IMG/VR virus record: IMGVR_UViG_3300025598_000079
Location: 1-39,776 of that record
Length of the DNA: 39,776 nucleotides
Source: a virus
Reading direction: 5' to 3' (one strand)
The translations under genes were made by a program, and so were the position numbers. Each line of letters opens with the position of its first letter. The first letter of the stretch is position 1. Under the pieces are notes generated by a model that ran no database searches, was not told where the DNA came from, and worked only from the letters and a program-made list of their open reading frames with translations. This document shows, piece by piece, positions 12,823-24,862 of this stretch.

Positions 12823-14826
12823 TTATATACCGCCATCACCAGGATCAACGTAGCCGCACTGGGTACTATTTTCTTCTAGTAGCGTTTCAATCGGTGGTCC
12901 ATAACTCATGGTTTGTACTTGCCACAACTCGTAACCTGGTCTACATTCGGTGTATATACTAACTGGTTGCGGATAACATTGTGAACTATTTGTTTCTACC
13001 AATCTCTCTTGGGTTGAGTTATCACTCATATCGTCTGTTGCCCACAGGTCAGGTCCTACACAATGAGTGGTTGTTCTAATCACCGTCAGAGGTGGCGGAG
13101 TGTAACCACACTGGGCACTATTTGCTTCTATCAATCTCTCTTGCGTTGAGCCATCATTCATGTGATCTGTTGCCCACAAATCAGTTCCTACACAATGAGT
13201 GGTTGTACTAACCACTGTCGGAGCAGGTGGTGGTACATCACTTGGACCACCAGCGAAGTAGCTAACAGAATAATTCAGCACCGCATTGACTCCGGTACTG
13301 GGTGTGGTTGTGTAAGCGATGTCAGTGGCTGCGGTGTTGTTGACGGCGGGTGCGGCGGATAAGACAATTTTTAAATTAGCTGTTTCGCTGTAATCATCCA
13401 TGAAGTCAATAACAACACCATTGCTGGCTATCCAAAGAGTTCCGGTTCGGCAATCACTGCCTCTGTCTATACTGTAGTCTATTTTACATCTTTTGTTGGC
13501 AACTGTAAATAGTGACTGGCGAGTTTTGTTGTCAACCAACACAGCATGTACACCAGATGCTGATGTTTTGGTACCCATGCTTAGTTCTACACCGTTGGTA
13601 ATGGCAATGCTGGTGGTGCCTTGTAGATTTATTCTAGGAGCAGTTGCCGCTAGGTTATCTGGACGCTGAAACATGTCGCCAATGCTGACGTTGTTGTTGC
13701 CACCAATGCTGATGATGTTGGTTCCAGTTGAATTGGTAATACCTGCGAATAAATTACCCACGTCATAAAATACATTGTGTCCGCTGGCGTTGAGACTAAC
13801 AGCACCCATTAAAATGGCTTCGGCATAAATAACGTCAAACACATTGTTGGTGATGCGAACTCCAGTGGGTCCGCCGGCAATAGGAGCAGTTTGTCCTAAC
13901 GCTATACCACGAAATAGTGTGTGGAATTTTGAATTGTTTATGACAACACCACGAATATTTTGGTCAGTGTTGATGGCATACGCTAGATTTAAAAAACTAC
14001 AAGAATCAAACACAATGTCCTGCGTAGTGAGTGACAGTGCGGCACCAAAGTCAACCCCAACACAAGTAGCGGCTTCACTGGTAATGCTGGATGTGGTTTC
14101 TACCCCTTGAAATGTCACACCAACAAATCTACAAGTGTTGGCAGATTGAATCACAAACACCGGTTTAGTGCTATCTAAAGTCTGAAATGCCAAGTTCATC
14201 ACCGTGATGTTCACAGGCGGGTGAGCAGAATTGGCACCAATGTTGCCTTGAGTTTGCTGTAAGCTGTCAGCAGTTTCTGCCACACATGTGGCAGTAGTAC
14301 CATGATCCAGTTGAATAATTGAACTAATCTTGCCTTCACCGTAGAGCGTGGCATACGCAGGAATTTTAATGCTAGAAGTCACGCGATAAACACCCGCAGG
14401 AAAATACAGTGCCTTGCGTGTTTGAACGTTTGCCGCGCGACAGTAAATTTGGTATAACGCTAGATTAATGGCAACGGTGTCATCAGTTAGTCCATCACCT
14501 CGGGCTCCAAAGTCCTTTACGCTAACCCATTGATCTAGGCGATCTTGTAATCTCTCAGTGGTAGTGGTTCCGTTGACTCCGGTTTGTGGCGTATAACCAG
14601 CTGCCGCGCCTTTGTAGTTGTAGCCTTTGGCTAGGTTGAGAATGTCGCTGAATTCTGTTAAAACTTCAGTATTTCCTACAACTGGCGCACCTTCTGATAA
14701 TGCCCCGTTGCCAATGTAAAGCTGTCTTGTATCTGTACTCCAGCCTAATTCCGCACCGGCTAATTGGGGTAAATCTGTGTTTAAGCCTAATCGGTGGGTA
14801 ATCTGGGATATTTGTGTAATCGCCAC
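12823..14826 (-). CDS. Tail fibre / tailspike with beta-helix and three C-terminal Cys-paired repeats
   Basis: A 667-residue receptor-binding candidate. Residues 10-45 (LGLNTDLPQLAGAELGWSTD, then QLYIGNG) match the short fibre-attachment module also seen at the N-terminus of Mtd-type proteins. From about 100 (VSVKDFGARGDGLTDDT) to about 430 it is a right-handed parallel beta-helix of the pectate-lyase type. Residues 541-667 hold three repeats of 40-44 residues, each starting T(T/E)xC and ending with NS(A/S/T)QC. The start is GTG at 14826, preceded by AAGGAACGC. A late-promoter-like CTAAATAT is at 14850-14857. Confidence 0.85.
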   Translation of the reverse strand: MAITQISQITHRLGLNTDLPQLAGAELGWSTDTRQLYIGNGALSEGAPVVGNTEVLTEFSDILNLAKGYNYKGAAAGYTPQTGVNGTTTTERLQDRLDQWVSVKDFGARGDGLTDDTVAINLALYQIYCRAANVQTRKALYFPAGVYRVTSSIKIPAYATLYGEGKISSIIQLDHGTTATCVAETADSLQQTQGNIGANSAHPPVNITVMNLAFQTLDSTKPVFVIQSANTCRFVGVTFQGVETTSSITSEAATCVGVDFGAALSLTTQDIVFDSCSFLNLAYAINTDQNIRGVVINNSKFHTLFRGIALGQTAPIAGGPTGVRITNNVFDVIYAEAILMGAVSLNASGHNVFYDVGNLFAGITNSTGTNIISIGGNNNVSIGDMFQRPDNLAATAPRINLQGTTSIAITNGVELSMGTKTSASGVHAVLVDNKTRQSLFTVANKRCKIDYSIDRGSDCRTGTLWIASNGVVIDFMDDYSETANLKIVLSAAPAVNNTAATDIAYTTTPSTGVNAVLNYSVSYFAGGPSDVPPPAPTVVSTTTHCVGTDLWATDHMNDGSTQERLIEANSAQCGYTPPPLTVIRTTTHCVGPDLWATDDMSDNSTQERLVETNSSQCYPQPVSIYTECRPGYELWQVQTMSYGPPIETLLEENSTQCGYVDPGDGGI
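12838..13206 (-). repeat. Three tandem repeats in tail-fibre C-terminus
   Basis: Protein repeats begin near residues 541, 585 and 625. Copies 1 and 2 are close: TTTHCVG(T/P)DLWATD, then STQERL(I/V)E.NS.QC. Copy 3 has diverged (YTECRPGYELWQVQ...EENSTQCGY). Each repeat has two Cys about 28 residues apart, plausibly a disulfide or a metal site. Proline-rich linkers separate copies. Confidence 0.75.
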
Positions 14827-15261: not shown

Positions 15262-15975
15262 TTATGTCATCAAATAATATTCTTCAACTCTTTTCCACCA
15301 TTTTATTCTATACTGCTCGTATTCGTCACCTTCTAGAATAAATTCTTGATAAACTGGCGCGTCTAGTAAATTGCCCATGTCATCAGTTTTGGGTTTGACG
15401 CATATCAATATCACACCTTTACGAATATTTGTTCCGTACAATTCATTATGAGCTTCACTGTATGCGCATAGTTGTAAAAAGTAATCTTCGATGTATTCCC
15501 GCTTTTTTGTCTTGTTTGATTGTTTGTAATCTAATATTGCTTCCGCACCTAAATGTATACCAGCACCGTCTGTTGTGCCAGCATATATACCTGGATAATA
15601 TAATGGGCATTCGACTCCCCAAAATTCATCTACATTCTTGAGACCTTGTTCAATAACCACCTCTGCCATTTTGTGACTGGCCCAAGTGTAAGGGTTGGTG
15701 CCAGCAGGTTTTAGCTCACCGGTTAGTACATAATGCTCGAGGTAGCTGTGCATCCTCGTGCCCCTATTAGCCGCCTCTGTGGTGATTTTTTGTGCTTGCT
15801 CTACACCAACAGCTTGGCGCCATTTTTCTAGTGCGGCGCGTTTTTCTTCAGGTTGTGTAGCTGTCAGTATGGTTGTCACACTTGGCAATTTTTTGCCATC
15901 TGGTGTGTTATAAACTCTTTTACCGTTTAGAGTGGTTCTTGACAGGGGTTGATAGGGGAATTTTGGGTTGTACAT
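15262..15975 (-). CDS. PD-(D/E)XK nuclease, RecB/MGME1-like
   Basis: A 237-residue nuclease-fold protein. Motifs in order: RGTRMH (71-76), the Glu of GVECPLYY (122), Asp136 in YAGTTDGAG, DYK at 149-151 in AILDYKQS, and the Gln motif YFLQLCAY (165-172). These are the metal-binding and catalytic elements of RecB-like and MGME1-like exonucleases. Similar genes occur in many T4-like phages, where DNA processing or degradation is presumed. Its start overlaps the stop of the methyltransferase-like gene, so it is translated together with the methyltransferase genes. Confidence 0.85.
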   Translation of the reverse strand: MYNPKFPYQPLSRTTLNGKRVYNTPDGKKLPSVTTILTATQPEEKRAALEKWRQAVGVEQAQKITTEAANRGTRMHSYLEHYVLTGELKPAGTNPYTWASHKMAEVVIEQGLKNVDEFWGVECPLYYPGIYAGTTDGAGIHLGAEAILDYKQSNKTKKREYIEDYFLQLCAYSEAHNELYGTNIRKGVILICVKPKTDDMGNLLDAPVYQEFILEGDEYEQYRIKWWKRVEEYYLMT

Positions 15976-16514
15976 TATTCAATATCTATTAACCCGTTGG
16001 CTATCGTCTCAGTAAATTTGACTAAGGCTGGCTGTTTTTTCTTGATTTTTTTAGATTTTTTAACTGTAGCAGATCCTAAATTATCTAAACCAAAGGATTC
16101 TAATTTAATTTTTTCTTCTTGTTGTCTCAATTCTTCATCTGTAAAATCAGTTCCGTTAAAACTATAATCGTATGTTAAAGCATCATGACATACGATGTTG
16201 CGCTTTACTATATGTCTTAGGTCTTCCCTGCCACAAAGTAATCTGTTCTGACATTCAATCACATTATCAGGCATTATATCAACACCGTATGTAGTTGATA
16301 ATGCTTGTTCAAGCGTTGAGCCATTTTCCAATTTACGTATTACTACTTCCGATAAGAATTGTCCATCACCGCAACTTGGATCTAAAAAAGTTTTTGTTGG
16401 ATCTGTAAATTGTTCAATGGGTATTTGTTCTAGTATTTCTTGTACTAATTTAGTTGGTGTAAATACTTCGCCTGTTGCTTTGATACGATTCTTATCTCGT
16501 TCAACACCGCTCAT
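15975..16514 (-). CDS. Methyltransferase-like protein lacking the catalytic motif IV
   Basis: A 179-residue protein starting MSGVERDKNRIKATGEVFTP. The frame opens 14 codons earlier (16556), but the MSGVERD start fits the family better from memory. It has motif X (GEVFTPTKL) and motif I (TFLDPSCGDGQFL, 42-54), then a motif II/III region (YGVDIMPDN, NIVCHDAL). No NPPY/DPPY motif IV follows, and the end is Lys-rich. It should bind S-adenosylmethionine but may not methylate by itself. It may be a partner of the adjacent NPPY enzyme. From memory, similar short forms occur in other phages. Confidence 0.75.
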   Translation of the reverse strand: MSGVERDKNRIKATGEVFTPTKLVQEILEQIPIEQFTDPTKTFLDPSCGDGQFLSEVVIRKLENGSTLEQALSTTYGVDIMPDNVIECQNRLLCGREDLRHIVKRNIVCHDALTYDYSFNGTDFTDEELRQQEEKIKLESFGLDNLGSATVKKSKKIKKKQPALVKFTETIANGLIDIE

Positions 16515-16536
16515 ATATTCGCGATGTCTAAGGTGA

Positions 16537-17640
16537 TTAATATAAGTGTTTAACATGAGATTCGATATGAGTGATTTCTGCGTTAGATAAGTTATAAATT
16601 TGATACAATTCAGTATCTGTAAATATTCGATCTATGAATAGATTCGGAACATACTCAATTTGAGGATTATCTAAAGTAGTTGAGGTACGAGTTCTTAGTA
16701 AAATATAGGTTACTAATTTACTTCTCCAAAAACTACTGTATTTTTCTTTATTCGATACAGCTTCATTTTCTGTGTCAAAGGTAGCAAACAATTTATATCC
16801 AGTTTTATTTGGAGGAATTATTTTTAATGTGTTTAACGGATCAATATCAAACCCTTCTTTTTTATAACTAGTTCCAATTCCCCATTTATCACTTATTCCC
16901 TTTAGGTTATGTTTTTTCTCTTTCGATGGTTTTAATTTATTTAATAACATAAGCTCTGTTGCGTCAGCTATTAATAATATTTTTTCATCAAAATTAGATA
17001 TAACTACACTTTTATTTCTATCAGATAAAGTAATTGATCCAGTATATCCTTTTTTACAAAAAACTGTGCACGTTCTTACTTTTGCATGTTCAAAAGCGTC
17101 CCATCCGTTGATAGTAATATTATATACCCCTGCTTTCTTTAAAGCATCTCTCATAACTTTACCAACGCCTCGAGTTTGTGTTAGCCAATTGGCTTGAATA
17201 ACAAAACAAAAATATTCCGGCATCATTTTCTCTGCCACTTTTTTTGTAAAAAGTTGATATATAGGATTATTTGCTGATGTTCCGTCGTTGTACGGAGGAT
17301 TACCAATCACTAAATCAAAATTCATGTCTGTTTTCCATTCTAAAAAATCTTCTGTAATAGTATTTTCAAATCCATAAACAGTTTTTGCATGATTAGTAAA
17401 TACTCGATATTTATCAAGCAGGAATAAAGAATTATTAACTTTTTCTTTACTTATTCCTAAGGATAGCATTCTTTTTGCTAATAGTACTGCTTCTGTTCCA
17501 TGCCCGCAAGCAATATTTAAAATACGAAGATTAGGTTTAAGCAGAAGTTCATCGGGAATATGAGATATAATATCTTCCCACATTTCTGTACTATCTGGCC
17601 CACCTAAAATTCCTTTGTTTAAATCAACAGCAAATCTCAT
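16537..17640 (-). CDS. Adenine-specific DNA methyltransferase (NPPY, Eco57I/TaqI-like)
   Basis: A 367-residue N6-adenine methyltransferase. Motif I is NIACGHG (42-48), motif IV is NPPY (114-117, in LVIGNPPYNDG). The C-terminal 150 residues resemble the target-recognition region of TaqI/Eco57I enzymes and end with IYNLSNAEITHIESHVK. It would methylate phage DNA at a specific site. TTAGGAGTTAGCG precedes the ATG. Its promoter and leader are identical over 57 bp to those of the helicase C-half gene, which suggests coordinated expression. A nuclease-helicase lies directly upstream, so a restriction-modification role is possible. Confidence 0.9.
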   Translation of the reverse strand: MRFAVDLNKGILGGPDSTEMWEDIISHIPDELLLKPNLRILNIACGHGTEAVLLAKRMLSLGISKEKVNNSLFLLDKYRVFTNHAKTVYGFENTITEDFLEWKTDMNFDLVIGNPPYNDGTSANNPIYQLFTKKVAEKMMPEYFCFVIQANWLTQTRGVGKVMRDALKKAGVYNITINGWDAFEHAKVRTCTVFCKKGYTGSITLSDRNKSVVISNFDEKILLIADATELMLLNKLKPSKEKKHNLKGISDKWGIGTSYKKEGFDIDPLNTLKIIPPNKTGYKLFATFDTENEAVSNKEKYSSFWRSKLVTYILLRTRTSTTLDNPQIEYVPNLFIDRIFTDTELYQIYNLSNAEITHIESHVKHLY

Positions 17641-17644
17641 CGCT

Positions 17645-17701
17645 AACTCCTAATTTCTTACTATATGCATATTATAATACCAAAACGAATTATTGTCAAC
17701 C
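17645..17701. repeat. 57-bp perfect direct repeat, copy 1 (promoter and leader of methyltransferase)
   Basis: Identical base for base to 19141-19197. It contains the -35, the -10, the leader and the AGGAGTT ribosome binding site. The two copies precede the methyltransferase and the helicase C-half. Confidence 0.95.
17671..17699 (-). promoter_or_regulatory. Early promoter TTGACA-17-TATAAT for methyltransferase
   Basis: -35 TTGACA at 17694-17699 and -10 TATAAT at 17671-17676, 17-bp spacer. Both hexamers are consensus. A TGTTGT-N6-ACAACA dyad lies 20 bases upstream. Confidence 0.85.
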
Positions 17702-17719
17702 AAAATTTAGCAATTGATT

Positions 17720-17737
17720 TGTTGTAATTATACAACA
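17720..17737. promoter_or_regulatory. Dyad TGTTGT-N6-ACAACA, copy 1
   Basis: Perfect 6-bp arms with a 6-base gap (AATTAT), between the stop of the helicase C-half and the -35 of the methyltransferase promoter. One of five exact copies in the window. Confidence 0.65.
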
Positions 17738-17748
17738 TTAGTATAACA

Positions 17749-19137
17749 TTAGATAAACAAATTGTCAACTATTTTAGGTTTACTATTTTGTACAATAACA
17801 TCTAAAATTGATTCATTCAAAGTTTTGTTATCTAACAAAATACTTATAGATGATGCGGGAATTCCAAACAAATCAATAAACTCTTTATCTAAATTATTAT
17901 CATTAGCAATGATATTGATACATTCTCTATAACTTTCGCCTTCGAGATTAGCTAAATGATAAACCGAAGTGGCGCTCATATTTAACGCACGAATAGCTTC
18001 ATTGATTGTTTTTTCTATATTCTTTTTCTCTGAATCACTTAACTCATGTTTGCCTGATGCCCCACCTTCTTTGACAAAGTTTTTAGCATCAGCCCCTAAT
18101 ATATCTTTTTTGTCACTCTTTGATTTACCGTCAGCTTTTACACTTGAAAGAATATCAAACACTCCCGATTCTAATGCCGCACTAATGTCAACACTAACAT
18201 CGGCAACTTTGAGTAGATTCTCATTATCACCAAAAATACCAAACATTTCTTCTTCGCTGATCTCGGCTAATACCATAGATCCTTTTACCTCCTTAAATTT
18301 AAATAAATTAATCGAAGATAATACATATTTTACCGCACTTGTAAAGTCATCGGCAAGCCCAGAACGTTGTATGCTAATTGCCTCGTCTAAAATTAACTTT
18401 TCGATATTTTCTGAACGGTTAGGATCAAACGATAAGTCAACAATGATTCCGTATTCTTTATCAGACACCCTGTCATATAATTTATGTTTGTCAGTAGTAG
18501 GTGTCAAACAGCGACTAACTTTTTGAGCAGTGGCGTCAACACTACCGCGATCATAAGCAATCACGGTTGCTTGAATTTCAGGAATAGAATAAGATCTACT
18601 GCCCATTTGATTAGCAATAATTAATACGCCTTTTTTACGCTCAATCTTAGCTTTGTTAATTTCACGAATAGTTTCGTATTGGGCATCTCTGTTGGTTGTA
18701 AAATCGCCATTTAGAACTTTAACATGCCAATCAGGTATAACACGTTCTGCTATGTCAGCGATTTGCGACATTTCTTTTTTGTTGGCAGATACTAATAACA
18801 TAAAACAGTCTACAGATGTATTTGCCAAAGCGGATAAATTTAATTCTGTACGCAAATTATCTTCGCCTATCAAAGATTTTAGTAATTGTCCTACAAATTC
18901 CTTATTACCTAAAGGATTGGCCCAAATTTTAGTCCAACTTGGTTGCACTTTTTCATCTAATTCTTCTACTTGCTGTTTCAAAGAATCAACTTCGGAACAA
19001 TAAAATTTTCGTTTTACAATTCCAGGTTCTTCTTTCTCTAATTGAGAATAAGATGTGTACAAGACACCATCAATATTTTTAGAGATTTTTGCCAATCTTT
19101 GTACGTTTGTACCCGAAGCAAATACTGAAATAAACAT
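17749..19137 (-). CDS. SF2 helicase, C-terminal half (split gene)
   Basis: A 462-residue protein that begins abruptly at helicase motif III: ISVFASGTNVQRL, with SGT at residues 8-10 in place of SAT. The second RecA-like domain follows: a motif IV region (CFMLLVSANKKEM), motif V-like QMGSRSYSIPEIQA (177-190) and motif VI QKVSR (205-209). There is no Walker A or DExx box; those lie in the upstream gene. The C-terminal 200 residues are of unknown function. AGGAGTTGAC precedes the ATG. Expected to act only in complex with the N-half. Confidence 0.85.
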   Translation of the reverse strand: MFISVFASGTNVQRLAKISKNIDGVLYTSYSQLEKEEPGIVKRKFYCSEVDSLKQQVEELDEKVQPSWTKIWANPLGNKEFVGQLLKSLIGEDNLRTELNLSALANTSVDCFMLLVSANKKEMSQIADIAERVIPDWHVKVLNGDFTTNRDAQYETIREINKAKIERKKGVLIIANQMGSRSYSIPEIQATVIAYDRGSVDATAQKVSRCLTPTTDKHKLYDRVSDKEYGIIVDLSFDPNRSENIEKLILDEAISIQRSGLADDFTSAVKYVLSSINLFKFKEVKGSMVLAEISEEEMFGIFGDNENLLKVADVSVDISAALESGVFDILSSVKADGKSKSDKKDILGADAKNFVKEGGASGKHELSDSEKKNIEKTINEAIRALNMSATSVYHLANLEGESYRECINIIANDNNLDKEFIDLFGIPASSISILLDNKTLNESILDVIVQNSKPKIVDNLFI

Positions 19138-19140
19138 GTC

Positions 19141-19197
19141 AACTCCTAATTTCTTACTATATGCATATTATAATACCAAAACGAATTATTGTCAACC
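19141..19197. repeat. 57-bp perfect direct repeat, copy 2 (inside the split helicase)
   Basis: Identical to 17645-17701. It lies between the two helicase halves, supplying promoter and ribosome binding site to the C-half. A likely mechanism is duplication of the methyltransferase promoter into the helicase gene. Confidence 0.95.
19167..19195 (-). promoter_or_regulatory. Early promoter TTGACA-17-TATAAT for helicase C-half
   Basis: -35 at 19190-19195, -10 at 19167-19172, 17-bp spacer. Sequence identical to the methyltransferase promoter. Confidence 0.85.
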
Positions 19198-19215
19198 GTT
19201 TTCAGCTCTTTTGAG

Positions 19216-19233
19216 TGTTGTTTTTATACAACA
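19216..19233. promoter_or_regulatory. Dyad TGTTGT-N6-ACAACA, copy 2
   Basis: Arms at 19216-19221 and 19228-19233 with gap TTTTAT. It overlaps the last codons and stop of the helicase N-half and lies 20 bases upstream of the C-half promoter, the same distance as copy 1. Confidence 0.65.
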
Positions 19234-20063
19234 TTAAATAAAAAGTCCAATTTAGCCACTTGATTTTCTGTGTGTGTACCAAAATCACCTTCATCAGCAA
19301 ATACAAAGATATCATCATTTGGAATATCTGCTATCCATTGGTGTTTGGCGATAAATTCTGTTAAATCACCGTGTAGACTAATGGGAACGATGATTCGCAA
19401 ACCTTGATCTAAATAAGATTGCGCGGTTTCTTCAGCGTTTGGATCATTAATGTCAATGTAACGAATATCTGCAAAATCTTTATATCTATTTAATTCTTCT
19501 GTAAATGAAGAATGAACTGATAACCAATAAGCTGGAAGTAACATTACCTTATTGCCATATTCTGCCGTAATTCGATTAAACAACATCAATGCCCAAATTG
19601 TTTTACCAAACCTGGGACATAAGTTGGCGATTATAGACGATTTATTAGTGCCTTTGGCAAAAATATCCATTGCCTTATCTAAATTCTGTTCTTGAATTTT
19701 GCGTAAAATTACATTAGGGCGCACTCGCTCACCTTCTAGTTCAGTCACAATATTATCAATATAGGCAAATACTTCTGCGGCATTTTTTGCGGGGATTTTA
19801 AACCATTCTGTGCCGGCATTATCTTTTTTATGCCAAAGACCTTTACCACGTAAAATTTCATGTACATCAAAATCACGGGCTATTTTTTTAAGTCCAACCC
19901 ATTCGCCAATTTTTACTTTACCTTCCCATTCTGCTGATCCACCTTGTTCGGCAATACGTATATCTGTGTCGCGATGACTATCACCAATTTTAGTAAGTAT
20001 ATATCCGTCTTCAGCAAATTCTTTCATTGCTGAAGGGTATGAATAAGCATATAAATTGATCAT
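19224..20063 (-). CDS. GIY-YIG-like (T5orf172/MUG113) domain fused to SF2 helicase N-terminal half
   Basis: A 279-residue protein. Residues 5-90 fit the GIY-YIG relatives T5orf172/MUG113: GYILTKIGDSHRDTDIR (20-36), VHE at 67-69 and EWF at 86-88. From 110 on it is the first RecA domain of an SF2 helicase: Walker A-like CPRFGKT (149-155) and motif II DEGD (257-260). It stops 19 residues after DEGD, before motif III, which opens the next gene. A consensus-like promoter (20118-20146) precedes it. The two halves together would make a nuclease-ATPase similar to the motor of restriction or defence systems. Confidence 0.8.
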   Translation of the reverse strand: MINLYAYSYPSAMKEFAEDGYILTKIGDSHRDTDIRIAEQGGSAEWEGKVKIGEWVGLKKIARDFDVHEILRGKGLWHKKDNAGTEWFKIPAKNAAEVFAYIDNIVTELEGERVRPNVILRKIQEQNLDKAMDIFAKGTNKSSIIANLCPRFGKTIWALMLFNRITAEYGNKVMLLPAYWLSVHSSFTEELNRYKDFADIRYIDINDPNAEETAQSYLDQGLRIIVPISLHGDLTEFIAKHQWIADIPNDDIFVFADEGDFGTHTENQVAKLDFLFNVV

Positions 20064-20117
20064 AATTATTTTTCCCAGTTAGCAGTTAAGTACCATTACT
20101 TAATTGTCTATGTGTAT

Positions 20118-20146
20118 ATTGTAATGTCAAATTAAATTATTGTCAA
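20118..20146 (-). promoter_or_regulatory. Early promoter TTGACA-17-TACAAT for nuclease-helicase N-half
   Basis: -35 TTGACA at 20141-20146, -10 TACAAT at 20118-20123, 17-bp spacer. The hairpin terminator at 20158-20182 is immediately upstream, so the cassette is an independent transcription unit. Confidence 0.75.
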
Positions 20147-20157
20147 CCAAAATTCAC

Positions 20158-20182
20158 AAAAATACCCCGAATCAACGGGGTA
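20158..20182 (-). terminator. Rho-independent terminator
   Basis: A 7-bp stem TACCCCG/CGGGGTA (20163-20169 with 20176-20182), six-base loop, followed on the minus strand by a short T-tract (20158-20162). It closes the four-gene early unit that begins at 21254. Confidence 0.75.
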
Positions 20183-20238
20183 AATTTATGTTGTTTTTTA
20201 ACAATATTTTAAGCAGAACTTGTTAGAATCTCTAGAAT

Positions 20239-20424
20239 TTAGTCTTCATTAATGGCATCTATACTGTCTAGACTGATGTCTACCATATCCCAATTTTCTT
20301 CAAAGTCTAGCTCATTATTGTTCAGTTGTTCTTGAATCATTGCCAGTGCTTCCTCTTCAGTTTCTGCGTCAACTGAAGTGTTTGTATACATGGGTATTGA
20401 TATCGAATAATAAAAAGTTTTCAT
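20239..20424 (-). CDS. Small acidic early protein
   Basis: 61 residues, MKTFYYSISIPMYTNTSVDA..., strongly acidic (EETEEEALAMIQEQLNNNEL-type helix, then ENWDMVDISLDSIDAINED). A beta-alpha-beta outline is likely. CAGGAATAACAA precedes the ATG. Last gene before the terminator at 20158-20182. Not recognised. Confidence 0.6.
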   Translation of the reverse strand: MKTFYYSISIPMYTNTSVDAETEEEALAMIQEQLNNNELDFEENWDMVDISLDSIDAINED

Positions 20425-20471
20425 TTGTTATTCCTGTTCATTTGATTAAATGGCACGATATTAATTGTAAA

Positions 20472-20684
20472 CTAGCGCCTAATAATATTAAAAATTGATT
20501 GCTGAAGATCAGCCACTTCATCATTAGGTACGAACCAATCAGTAGCCGGATCCCAATATTCGCCATCTTTAGGAGAATAATAGAGAACACGACCATTAGG
20601 GTATTTAAATGGACCTTCCAAACCCTCACGTGGGCCGTAAGCATCACGCATGACATCAACAGCATCTTTTACACGATATCCCAT
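20472..20684 (-). CDS. Small early protein, unknown
   Basis: 70 residues starting MGYRVKDAVDVMRDAYGPRE. The ATG at 20684 follows the stop of the upstream gene by one base and has TTGGGAGAGTAAT before it, so I prefer it over the start at 20705. Aromatic and charged segments (VLYYSPKDGEYWDPATDWF) suggest a folded domain. Not recognised. Confidence 0.6.
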   Translation of the reverse strand: MGYRVKDAVDVMRDAYGPREGLEGPFKYPNGRVLYYSPKDGEYWDPATDWFVPNDEVADLQQSIFNIIRR

Positions 20685-20685
20685 A

Positions 20686-20979
20686 TTACTCTCCCAAGTT
20701 TTCAACAGTAGACTTATAAAAGTAATTACGATAACTGCGGATCTTACTTTGACGATTGGTATGTGTGTCGTTTATTTTAACAGTATAACCCCTAGCCTCT
20801 AATGCGTCAATCAGTATTGACAAATCACAGTCTTCTTCCAAAAACACATTGCCATTTTTAACATAACTAAAGTAACTGATTTTGTCAGCAATACCCAAAC
20901 GCTCTAACCGAGCCAAGGGAAAACGAACCCAGCCATGACCAGGATCATCAAATTTTCTAAGTACGATTGATTTTGTCAT
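20686..20979 (-). CDS. Conserved DPGHGW-type early protein
   Basis: 97 residues. DDPGHGWVRFPLARLERLGI, ADKISYFSY, FLEEDCDLSI and TNRQSKIRSYRNYFY fit a conserved family of unknown function found in phages and some bacteria. The conserved acidic and basic patches suggest interaction with nucleic acid or a host protein, but no activity is known to me. Middle gene of the unit driven by the promoter at 21286-21314. Confidence 0.75.
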   Translation of the reverse strand: MTKSIVLRKFDDPGHGWVRFPLARLERLGIADKISYFSYVKNGNVFLEEDCDLSILIDALEARGYTVKINDTHTNRQSKIRSYRNYFYKSTVENLGE

Positions 20980-20990
20980 TGCTAGTCTCC

Positions 20991-21254
20991 TTAATTGTAT
21001 TCGTAAAATTTAACACTGGTGTCCAATGCTGTCAATTGCGCCGCCGCTTCACGCAGAGCTTTGTATCGACGAGCAACTTCTGCGCGGGGCAACTCGCCAT
21101 CGCAAGTCAAGTTCTCAGGGCTCAAGTCCGAGTCAATGCTATTAGCAATCTTCTGTCTATCTTCGGCATTTTGGATGCTCAATTGCTTGCCTCCAAAGAT
21201 AGCGTTCCAACGGTTTTTTTGATCTACATACGCGGTTAGTGCTGATACTTTCAT
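20991..21254 (-). CDS. Small early protein, unknown
   Basis: 87 residues, mostly helical and charged (MKVSALTAYVDQKNRWNAIF, then RAEVARRYKALREAAAQLTA). AAAGGAGCAGTAA precedes the ATG, and the promoter lies 32 bases upstream. First gene of the four-gene early unit. Not recognised. Confidence 0.6.
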   Translation of the reverse strand: MKVSALTAYVDQKNRWNAIFGGKQLSIQNAEDRQKIANSIDSDLSPENLTCDGELPRAEVARRYKALREAAAQLTALDTSVKFYEYN

Positions 21255-21285
21255 TTACTGCTCCTTTTTTAACTACAATACAAGT

Positions 21286-21314
21286 ATTATACAACCAAAA
21301 TTAATATTCGTCAA
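21286..21314 (-). promoter_or_regulatory. Early promoter TTGACG-17-TATAAT
   Basis: -35 at 21309-21314, -10 at 21286-21291. The -35 lies inside the last codons of the upstream gene (Val-Asp-Glu-Tyr-stop). A hairpin GTTGCG-TTCA-CGCAAC (21324-21339) lies just upstream. Core sequence is nearly identical to the promoters at 21855, 22463 and 24830. Confidence 0.85.
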
Positions 21315-21522
21315 CCAAAACACCGTTGCGTTCACGCAACAAAAGTATAATGTCACGTGTCATTTCGCGGTCAAAACTGTCACCCAAAAACTCTACAGTG
21401 GCAAAATCTGGATGATTTTTAAGCAGGTCTGTGGCTTGTTCAACTTCAGCTTGGCTGGCACCAATGTCGTAAATACCATCATCGCCATAAAAACTCAAAA
21501 CATATTGGGTAAAATCATTCAT
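21301..21522 (-). CDS. Small early protein, unknown
   Basis: 73 residues starting MNDFTQYVLSFYGDDGIYDI. The ATG at 21522 has AAAGGAGAACGCA before it; the longer frame to 21561 overlaps the upstream gene. Acidic, with a helix-turn-helix-like spacing (GASQAEVEQATDLLKNHPDF) that is not diagnostic. Its 3' end carries the -35 of the next promoter. Not recognised. Confidence 0.6.
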   Translation of the reverse strand: MNDFTQYVLSFYGDDGIYDIGASQAEVEQATDLLKNHPDFATVEFLGDSFDREMTRDIILLLRERNGVLVDEY

Positions 21523-21548
21523 TGCGTTCTCCTTTGTTATGAGGAAAA

Positions 21549-21821
21549 TCAAGCAGACCAATATGACTCACTAGCGGGTGAGCAATAATACGGAGTGTCA
21601 TAACGCTCACTAAATTCCTTACCACCCATTAGGTTTGTCTTGGTAACATAAGTTTCAAACACTTCAACTACAAAGCCCAACTTACGTTTGGCTTCGGCAA
21701 CGGTGTTGATGTAGTCTTGAGTCACTGGCTCAAAGTCCTGTTTGGCAACCAATCGTTTACCTTTTTTAACACGGCGGTCGGCTTTGTAAATTTCGATTGT
21801 GTATTCTGTAAGTTTTGACAT
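21549..21821 (-). CDS. Small early protein, unknown
   Basis: 90 residues starting MSKLTEYTIEIYKADRRVKK. CAGGAGTTAAAA precedes the ATG at 21821; the apparent earlier start lies in the promoter. Basic first half, aromatic end (RYDTPYYCSPASESYWSA). Not recognised. Promoter at 21855-21883. Confidence 0.6.
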   Translation of the reverse strand: MSKLTEYTIEIYKADRRVKKGKRLVAKQDFEPVTQDYINTVAEAKRKLGFVVEVFETYVTKTNLMGGKEFSERYDTPYYCSPASESYWSA

Positions 21822-21854
21822 TTTTAACTCCTGTTTGTTGTTGTCTATGTAGTT

Positions 21855-21883
21855 ATTATACAACCAAAATCAATATTCGTCAA
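21855..21883 (-). promoter_or_regulatory. Early promoter TTGACG-17-TATAAT
   Basis: -35 TTGACG at 21878-21883, -10 TATAAT at 21855-21860, 17-bp spacer. The terminator and dyad at 21886-21915 abut it upstream. Confidence 0.85.
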
Positions 21884-21885
21884 CC

Positions 21886-22123: not shown

Positions 22124-22435
22124 TCACCAAGCCAAGACCTTTGTGGGGCTGGTGATTTTACCTATATATTCCAACTGGTCTTGTTCGAATTCGGTTTTAA
22201 AATCGTTTGATACCAAATCCCAACCGATGATGTGTTCTTTGTAGAACTCGCTGTTTTCTTCGATTTGTGAGCGTAGAGCCATTACGGCTGTGGTAGCTTC
22301 GTCGTTGTTTTTAATGTTCTTGACAAAGTAGTCATTGCCACCTTTGAATTTCCAATACTGAGGACACACACCTTTACCGTCCCAATCGTGCGCACTATAA
22401 TTTTCTTGTGTTTGGGTTTGGATATGTAATTTCAT
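22124..22435 (-). CDS. Early protein whose first 22 codons are duplicated
   Basis: 103 residues starting MKLHIQTQTQENYSAHDWDG. CAGGAGCAAGC precedes the ATG. The promoter, leader and first 22 codons are repeated exactly at 24738-24862. After residue 22 this copy continues as an intact protein (VCPQYWKFKGGNDYFVKNIK...). I take this one as the original gene and the other as a truncated copy. Not recognised. A CPQYWKFKGG stretch suggests a folded beta-rich domain. Confidence 0.65.
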   Translation of the reverse strand: MKLHIQTQTQENYSAHDWDGKGVCPQYWKFKGGNDYFVKNIKNNDEATTAVMALRSQIEENSEFYKEHIIGWDLVSNDFKTEFEQDQLEYIGKITSPTKVLAW

Positions 22436-22495
22436 GCTTGCTCCTGTTTGTTGTATGTAGTTATTATACAACCAAAATCATTATTCGTCAACCAA
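22371..22495. repeat. 125-bp perfect direct repeat, copy A
   Basis: Identical to 24738-24862 over all 125 bases. It includes promoter, leader, ribosome binding site and 22 codons of the MKLHIQ gene. Together the copies flank 2.24 kb with two lipoprotein genes. Confidence 0.97.
22463..22491 (-). promoter_or_regulatory. Early promoter TTGACG-17-TATAAT (repeat copy A)
   Basis: -35 at 22486-22491, -10 at 22463-22468, 17-bp spacer. An imperfect inverted pair GTTGTAT/ATACAAC (22451-22457 and 22466-22472) spans the -10 and start region. Confidence 0.85.
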
Positions 22496-24737: not shown

Positions 24738-24862
24738 CCTTTACCGTCCCAATCGTGCGCACTATAATTTTCTTGTGTTTGGGTTTGGATATGTAATTTC
24801 ATGCTTGCTCCTGTTTGTTGTATGTAGTTATTATACAACCAAAATCATTATTCGTCAACCAA
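24738..24862. repeat. 125-bp perfect direct repeat, copy B
   Basis: Identical to 22371-22495. Here the 22 codons of the MKLHIQ gene run on into the small cargo protein, so this copy is truncated and marks one boundary of the insertion. Confidence 0.97.
24830..24858 (-). promoter_or_regulatory. Early promoter TTGACG-17-TATAAT (repeat copy B)
   Basis: -35 at 24853-24858, -10 at 24830-24835; drives the small cargo protein and the glycosidase-like lipoprotein. The -35 lies in the last codons of the upstream gene. Confidence 0.85.

Follow-up and report, generated by a model that had tools for sequence, protein, structure and literature searches.

What might a phage do with a nuclease domain, a helicase that is split in two and a pair of methyltransferase-like proteins encoded side by side, and do these genes form one system? 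The window analysed here is the whole stretch of IMG/VR virus record IMGVR_UViG_3300025598_000079 (39,776 bases, positions 1-39,776). It belongs to a lytic-type tailed phage with genes for a DnaB-like helicase, DNA ligase, NrdA/NrdB and a tail spike, and carries such a locus, with its promoters and terminator-like stem, on the minus strand. A preliminary description had placed five open reading frames (ORFs) there and read them as a possible restriction-like unit, in which a nuclease and a motor work with a modification enzyme. All five are present, and the idea of such a unit gained support from gene co-occurrence, conserved residues and the swapping of parts (Mom, Dam, and ResIII with Mrr). 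Our analysis suggests that four of the genes, HN, HC, M2 and M1, probably constitute a phage-borne, ATP-dependent, Type ISP-like restriction-modification (R-M) machine, predicted from sequence and structure models to mark the phage DNA and to cut unmarked DNA.

The first two genes encode the motor and the nuclease. HN (19224..20063, 279 amino acids (aa)) combines a GIY-YIG (T5orf172-like) nuclease domain in residues 1-110 with the RecA1 domain of a superfamily 2 (SF2) motor, and HC (17749..19137, 462 aa) provides motif III, the RecA2 domain and a C-terminal part. The split that had been described was confirmed: HN contains Walker A (CPRFGKT) and motif II (DEGDFG) and breaks off before motif III, HC opens with that motif (ASGT), and in the sister phage L008 (L numbers denote the loci compared) the sequence of both is continuous in a single reading frame (DEGDFGTHTENQVAKLKYIF...FVSVYASGTNVQRLAK). 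An HC-type second half follows directly after HN, or is fused to it, in nearly all relatives. Residue conservation was counted over 73 relatives, among which RFGKT is kept in 97-99% and DE[AG]D in 96%; the GIY-YIG residues are Y5/Y7, K25-G27, R36 (in 78%) and E86 (in 89%). The window itself encodes LYAY, TKIGD, DIRI and TEWF, and therewith the GIY/KIG motif and the catalytic Arg and Glu. A lack of catalytic residues in alignments, which the preliminary description had named as a refuting result, was not seen: they are conserved in the GIY-YIG, motor and M2 parts.

Database matches to these proteins came mostly from relatives. HN alone and HC alone passed no Pfam threshold, and a sequence-only search of the PDB with motor and GIY-YIG profiles gave no credible match. 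Gut-phage homologues matched ResIII (4.4e-11) and T5orf172 (2.3e-9) in Pfam, and among 42 phage relatives there were matches to Helicase_C, T5orf172, MUG113 and ResIII, with T5orf172 at E<0.01 in nine of the 42 (best 2.6e-6). Using an AlphaFold2 (AF2) model of the fused L008 motor (pLDDT 81.7, pTM 0.76), Foldseek returned the Type ISP enzyme LlaBIII at the top (E 6.7e-10), followed by HsdR and ZorD. Alignment of the same model with VIA-align gave RadD a Z of 21.5 and LlaBIII a Z of 20.2, the latter over the longest stretch (405 residues).

M2 and M1 are the modification genes, described earlier as an NPPY methyltransferase and a methyltransferase-like protein without motif IV, and their motifs bear this out. 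M2 (16537..17640, 367 aa) is a gamma-type adenine methyltransferase of the Eco57I family (Pfam Eco57I, E 3.7e-12) with motif IV (NPPY) and a C-terminal target-recognition region. M1 (15975..16556, 193 aa) is a methyltransferase half with motifs X, I, II and III (EVFTP, DPSCGDG, YGVD and HDAL) that stops ahead of motif IV; its family conserves EVFTP, D59, G63, G65, D/E93 and D/N125. By pattern counts motif I is kept in 86 of 88 M1 and NPPY occurs in none of them, and a motif I-like GxG is kept in only 47 of 101 distinct M2. About 20 stand-alone M2 proteins start less than 80 residues before NPPY. When an AF2 model of M1 (pLDDT 80) was superposed on the adenine methyltransferase CamA, it matched residues 2-157 (Z 12.3, 127 residues, 3.0 A). 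CamA has its S-adenosylmethionine (SAM)-binding aspartates at positions 60, 114 and 149 and its NPPY at Asn165 to Tyr168 (PMC8187626), and the superposition spans all three aspartates and ends before the NPPY. Of 41 module loci whose M2 bears NPPY, 38 also have M1 (36 recognised by pattern, plus L045 and L077), and M1 is missing from 10 of 11 loci without such an M2; as the loci are related, these figures are plain counts. The SAM motifs I-III without motif IV on M1 and motif IV on M2 are the sequence pattern of a split methyltransferase, and M1 may provide SAM binding to M2. Since the window M2 retains a motif I-like IACGHG, the window M1 could be regulatory.

Whether these genes belong together was examined in two samples that partly overlap: 80 IMG/VR loci anchored on HN, and a further 80 anchored on M1 and fetched without reference to the motor. 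The order motor-M2-M1 is kept in about 50 viral contigs. Most HN-anchored loci with enough DNA show it in the same order and on the same strand, as does Synechococcus phage S-CAM7. Seen from M1, nearly every locus has an M2 immediately upstream, and in 67 of about 72 loci with enough DNA this M2 is preceded by an SF2 motor. These 67 motors comprise 44 of the HN type, about 9 single-chain motor-M2 proteins, 1 motor-like protein and 13 of a ResIII type with a separate small nuclease, the fusion and ResIII-type classes being assigned by eye. In the fusions of the M1 scan M2 is joined to a divergent motor (1140-1246 aa). Motor and M2 were found in one protein in L030, L057, L070, L099, L113, L125, L138 and L170, and M1 is still separate in L030, L099 and L113. 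Two small nucleases of the ResIII-type modules (L114, L151) pass the Pfam cut-off as Mrr_cat_2 restriction endonucleases, with a ResIII match of 4e-17 for the motor. HC and M2 as single queries had no match in IMG/VR, a DNA-level search of phages gave no match, and a profile scan with the C-half returned a single locus. Separately, S-CAM7 (MT586120) has a second M2-M1 pair at 49984-51181, 6 kb from its four-gene module.

The fifth gene of the window (15262-15975, 237 aa) encodes a PD-(D/E)XK exonuclease (phrog_298 match, E 7e-51). It adjoins the module only in the window; no conserved gene follows M1, and among 86 other loci only L059 has the exonuclease, at a distance of 3.7 kb upstream of HN. 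We therefore rejected it as a component: HN, HC, M2 and M1 are a recurrent phage module, and the exonuclease is only a neighbour. The expectation that all five genes co-occur thus held for motor, M2 and M1, which recur in unchanged order across dozens of phages and were found from both ends, but not for the exonuclease, already suspected of being a bystander.

The modification part of the module is exchanged and multiplied among phages. One clade (L023, L031, L033, L035, L038, L053, L067-L069) lacks M1. Behind its motor lies the gene for a protein of 290 aa that resembles the C-half of M2 and has no NPPY, and the clade also encodes Mom (PF25680, E to 2.2e-39); in L039 a D12 Dam (2.2e-20) takes the position of Mom. 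With three true M2 rows left out, the M2 remnants of the Mom clade matched the M2 C-half at a probability of 79% and with E 1.5e-5 across 178 columns (E 0.26 for the reversed control), which is a weak relation. Despite the changed chemistry motor and nuclease keep some DNA-modifying enzyme and stay linked to DNA modification, as restriction with self-marking predicts. Elsewhere M2 has been multiplied. L045 encodes five tandem M2 genes and then M1, and the M2 copies are 92-96% identical up to NPPY and 0-46% past it. Each spacer carries a scar made of the first codons of M1 (HHARNREYMSG) and the last codons of HC (GVLPIGLASLQKAAKTLQIQA), followed by a promoter, and some copies are frame-shifted. 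The scars indicate that the array arose by tandem duplication of a unit reaching from the HC end over the promoter and M2 to the M1 start, with replacement of the recognition parts. Four M2 genes occur in L073, with N-parts 65-87% and C-parts 20-25% identical. M2 expansions that include short copies starting at NPPY were also seen in L012 (10205-15823) and L134 (2991-6011); these copies are possibly spare recognition cassettes.

How the parts might work together, that is complex formation, methylation, ATP-driven cleavage and the target DNA, we infer as follows. M1, as the SAM-binding half, and M2, as the catalytic NPPY half with target recognition, would methylate adenine at a short target on the phage DNA. 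HN and HC would assemble as one SF2 motor bearing the GIY-YIG nuclease. M2 would recruit this motor to unmethylated targets, the motor would travel along the DNA and the GIY-YIG domain would cut. In this way the phage may mark its own DNA and destroy unmarked DNA of the host chromosome, plasmids or competing phages, and additional M2 copies might bring extra specificities to one shared motor. Some observations weigh against such a machine. The GIY-YIG domain of the window by itself falls under the Pfam gathering score (15.3 bits vs a cut-off of 20, E 0.03), and the GIY-YIG Arg is absent in about 21% of relatives. Motif IV is altered in three M2 (NPAH in L034, APPF in L072, NYPY in L085), and a few contigs with an active-type M2 seem to be without M1 (L009, L052, L070).

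Host DNA and rival phages are equally good as candidate targets. One possibility, which we regard as tentative, is that the main target is the unmethylated host chromosome and not rival phages, the purpose being nucleotide scavenging or host shut-off; this is a sub-case of the proposed R-M machine and does not exclude it. The phage also has NrdA, NrdB and DNA ligase, and there is a precedent in T4 EndoII, a GIY-YIG enzyme that degrades bacterial DNA and spares the modified phage DNA (PMC1564403). However, the diversified target recognition of the M2 arrays suits an arms race with varied DNA more than a fixed host target.

A purely protective role of the module is unlikely. In such a role M2 and M1 would guard the phage DNA against host restriction, and the GIY-YIG motor, an enzyme of recombination or repair, would be a neighbour acting on its own. 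Anti-restriction is a common role of phage methyltransferases, a jumbo-phage review proposes a recombination role (Holliday-junction-resolvase-like) for the T5orf172 family, and broad protection would also suit the M2 arrays. Yet motor and M2 are fused as one protein in many phages, and beside the same M2-M1 the motor and nuclease can be replaced by another motor and a Mrr-type restriction nuclease, both of which argue against an independent enzyme.

The window copy could be read as a broken, non-functional gene in decay, as the helicase frame is interrupted there and continuous in sisters L008 and L009. The window's nearest relatives have a fused helicase. In the window RecA1 itself is cut, past motif II and ahead of motif III, and no conserved residue is lost compared to the unsplit sisters L008-L010; other clades have the cut behind motif III, where RecA1 meets RecA2. 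The split or fused state changes 12 times on a tree of 70 helicases (a quick tree with some long branches), at least 11 of these changes being forced by supported branches. Both halves are under purifying selection in split pairs that are closely related, with a dN/dS of about 0.05-0.1. The repeated changes together with this selection indicate that the split is a recurrent state kept by selection and not one broken gene. We consider decay very improbable, given also that the junction in the window is clean, with a consensus promoter, ribosome-binding site (RBS) and ATG, that both halves are still open at 61-67% identity to L008, and that splits were found repeatedly and at two sites. An intron, intein or bypass in the helicase gap was rejected because the 86-nt gap carries promoter, RBS and ATG. 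L073, with three M2 genes with their own similar promoters between HN and HC, shows a likely route to the split, as a promoter like that in the window would stay behind between the halves once such an insert is lost.

Own promoters and an upstream terminator had also been noted for the locus, and both were recovered. The block inside the helicase, ahead of HC (19141..19197), contains TTGACA-17-TATAAT with 12 of 12 positions of a sigma-70-like consensus and the RBS AGGAGT. The block before M2 (17645..17701, also 12/12) is identical to it at 57 of 57 positions, which suggests a recent copy. The promoter before HN (20118..20146, TTGACA-17-TACAAT) matches 11 of 12. The intrinsic terminator-like stem, earlier placed at 20158-20182, was found at 20163..20182 (7-bp stem, five GC pairs, T run) and parts the module from the upstream genes. 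More promoter-like blocks, 61-65% similar to the 57-nt block, lie ahead of neighbouring small genes at 20092-21885, so the cassette shares the common promoter type of the phage.

Least probable of all is a homing or marker-exclusion device in which the GIY-YIG domain spreads the module itself: GIY-YIG domains are frequent in phage homing enzymes and the genes downstream of the module vary among phages, but a freestanding small GIY-YIG/NUMOD architecture is not seen and the association with motor and modification enzymes is constant.

Some observations were made apart from the module. In the window, identical 125-nt direct repeats (22371-22495 and 24738-24862, 2.4 kb apart) surround two genes, one esterase-like and the other of unknown function. 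A tail-spike-like protein (12823-14826) combines Mtd_N (major tropism determinant) at its N-terminus with a pectate-lyase fold, and its gene contains a 123-nt repeat pair (82%) at 12976-13230. A weak HicB-like antitoxin match (phrog_9151, E 6e-4) was found at 1363-1968. In L003 (9260-11113) a DNA methyltransferase of huge phage LR756508 seems, by eye, to be interrupted by an intein (CLSEDTEILTEDGWKDL... VFITGN), and in L170 (2-1191) neighbouring ORFs resemble, by eye, split-intein halves in a ribonucleotide reductase gene (VKPAG-C... / ...LSHN-TTSLVLGTSSG).

That phages repeatedly split, swap and multiply the module parts suggests that viruses use restriction systems of their own against unmarked DNA. 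For large phages in general it is an evenly balanced possibility that an R-M machine exists in three parts, namely an SF2/GIY-YIG motor toggling between split and fused, a shared M1 and multipliable M2 arrays, with several specificities per motor and a swappable chemistry (methylation, momylation). If the proposed R-M machine is real, lytic-type phages would carry a complete self/non-self DNA discrimination, a weapon usually ascribed to hosts. M1 and M2 would then represent a natural adenine methyltransferase divided into a SAM half and a catalytic half. The motor with its repeated splits would be a natural experiment in the separability of RecA1 and RecA2, and the M2 arrays with their duplication scars would be a direct record of the origin of new DNA specificities. 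The swap of methylation for Mom makes testable the long-standing question of what Mom-type marks guard against, since the partner nuclease may share the operon.

Compared with known systems, the module resembles T4 endonuclease II, as in both a phage encodes a GIY-YIG nuclease from which its modified DNA would be safe. It differs by its ATP motor and by bringing a sequence-specific methyltransferase of its own. Mom, known as a modification of phage Mu, takes the place of the methyltransferase in one clade, whereas the modification enzyme of the window is the methyltransferase pair. With Type I R-M (HsdR/HsdM/HsdS, with variable S) it shares a motor and a methyltransferase on separate genes and an exchangeable specificity; a separate HsdS specificity subunit was not found in the module, recognition is predicted to lie inside M2, and GIY-YIG stands in place of PD-(D/E)XK. 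Partner genes of BREX, DISARM and MADS were not found among the five window genes, for which PADLOC gave methyltransferase-type matches only, including mad2 and PglX as distant methyltransferases. Bacterial plasmids carry more distant relatives, either M1-M2-GIY-YIG motor operons or M1 with a GIY-helicase-Eco57I fusion of 1417-1445 aa, which are recognised by the PADLOC 'Type IIG REase-MTase' model (PDLC03626). They have the same three kinds of protein including a separate M1, but a reversed gene order, an unsplit motor and an M2 of about 530 aa. The phage-type motor was seen in viral contigs and a few phage records; that of L008 had no match among plasmids nor in PADLOC, and a scan of 85,000 GTDB species genomes with the HN profile, which is pattern-limited and no proof of absence, returned one 4-kb contig of a metagenome-assembled genome. 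No description of the four-gene phage system was found in the literature searched, subscription papers lying outside the search.

The closest likeness is to the Type ISP enzymes LlaBIII and LlaGI, a type characterised by ATP-dependent cleavage once translocating enzymes converge. The module shares with them the SF2 translocase motor, for which LlaBIII is the best Foldseek match, and the gamma-class N6-adenine methyltransferase with NPPY and a C-terminal recognition region. Single-chain motor-M2 fusions and Mrr-type nucleases occur in sister phages. However, nuclease, motor, methyltransferase and recognition region are one polypeptide in Type ISP and are spread over four ORFs in the phage-borne module of the window, which has a separate SAM-binding half M1 and a multipliable M2. 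In addition, the Mrr-family PD-(D/E)XK nuclease of Type ISP is replaced in the window by a GIY-YIG-type N-terminus, Mrr_cat_2 being present only in the sisters L114 and L151. Because the single chain and the Mrr nuclease are both defining, we do not class the module as Type ISP; by its sequence it appears to be a new variant of ATP-dependent restriction-modification.

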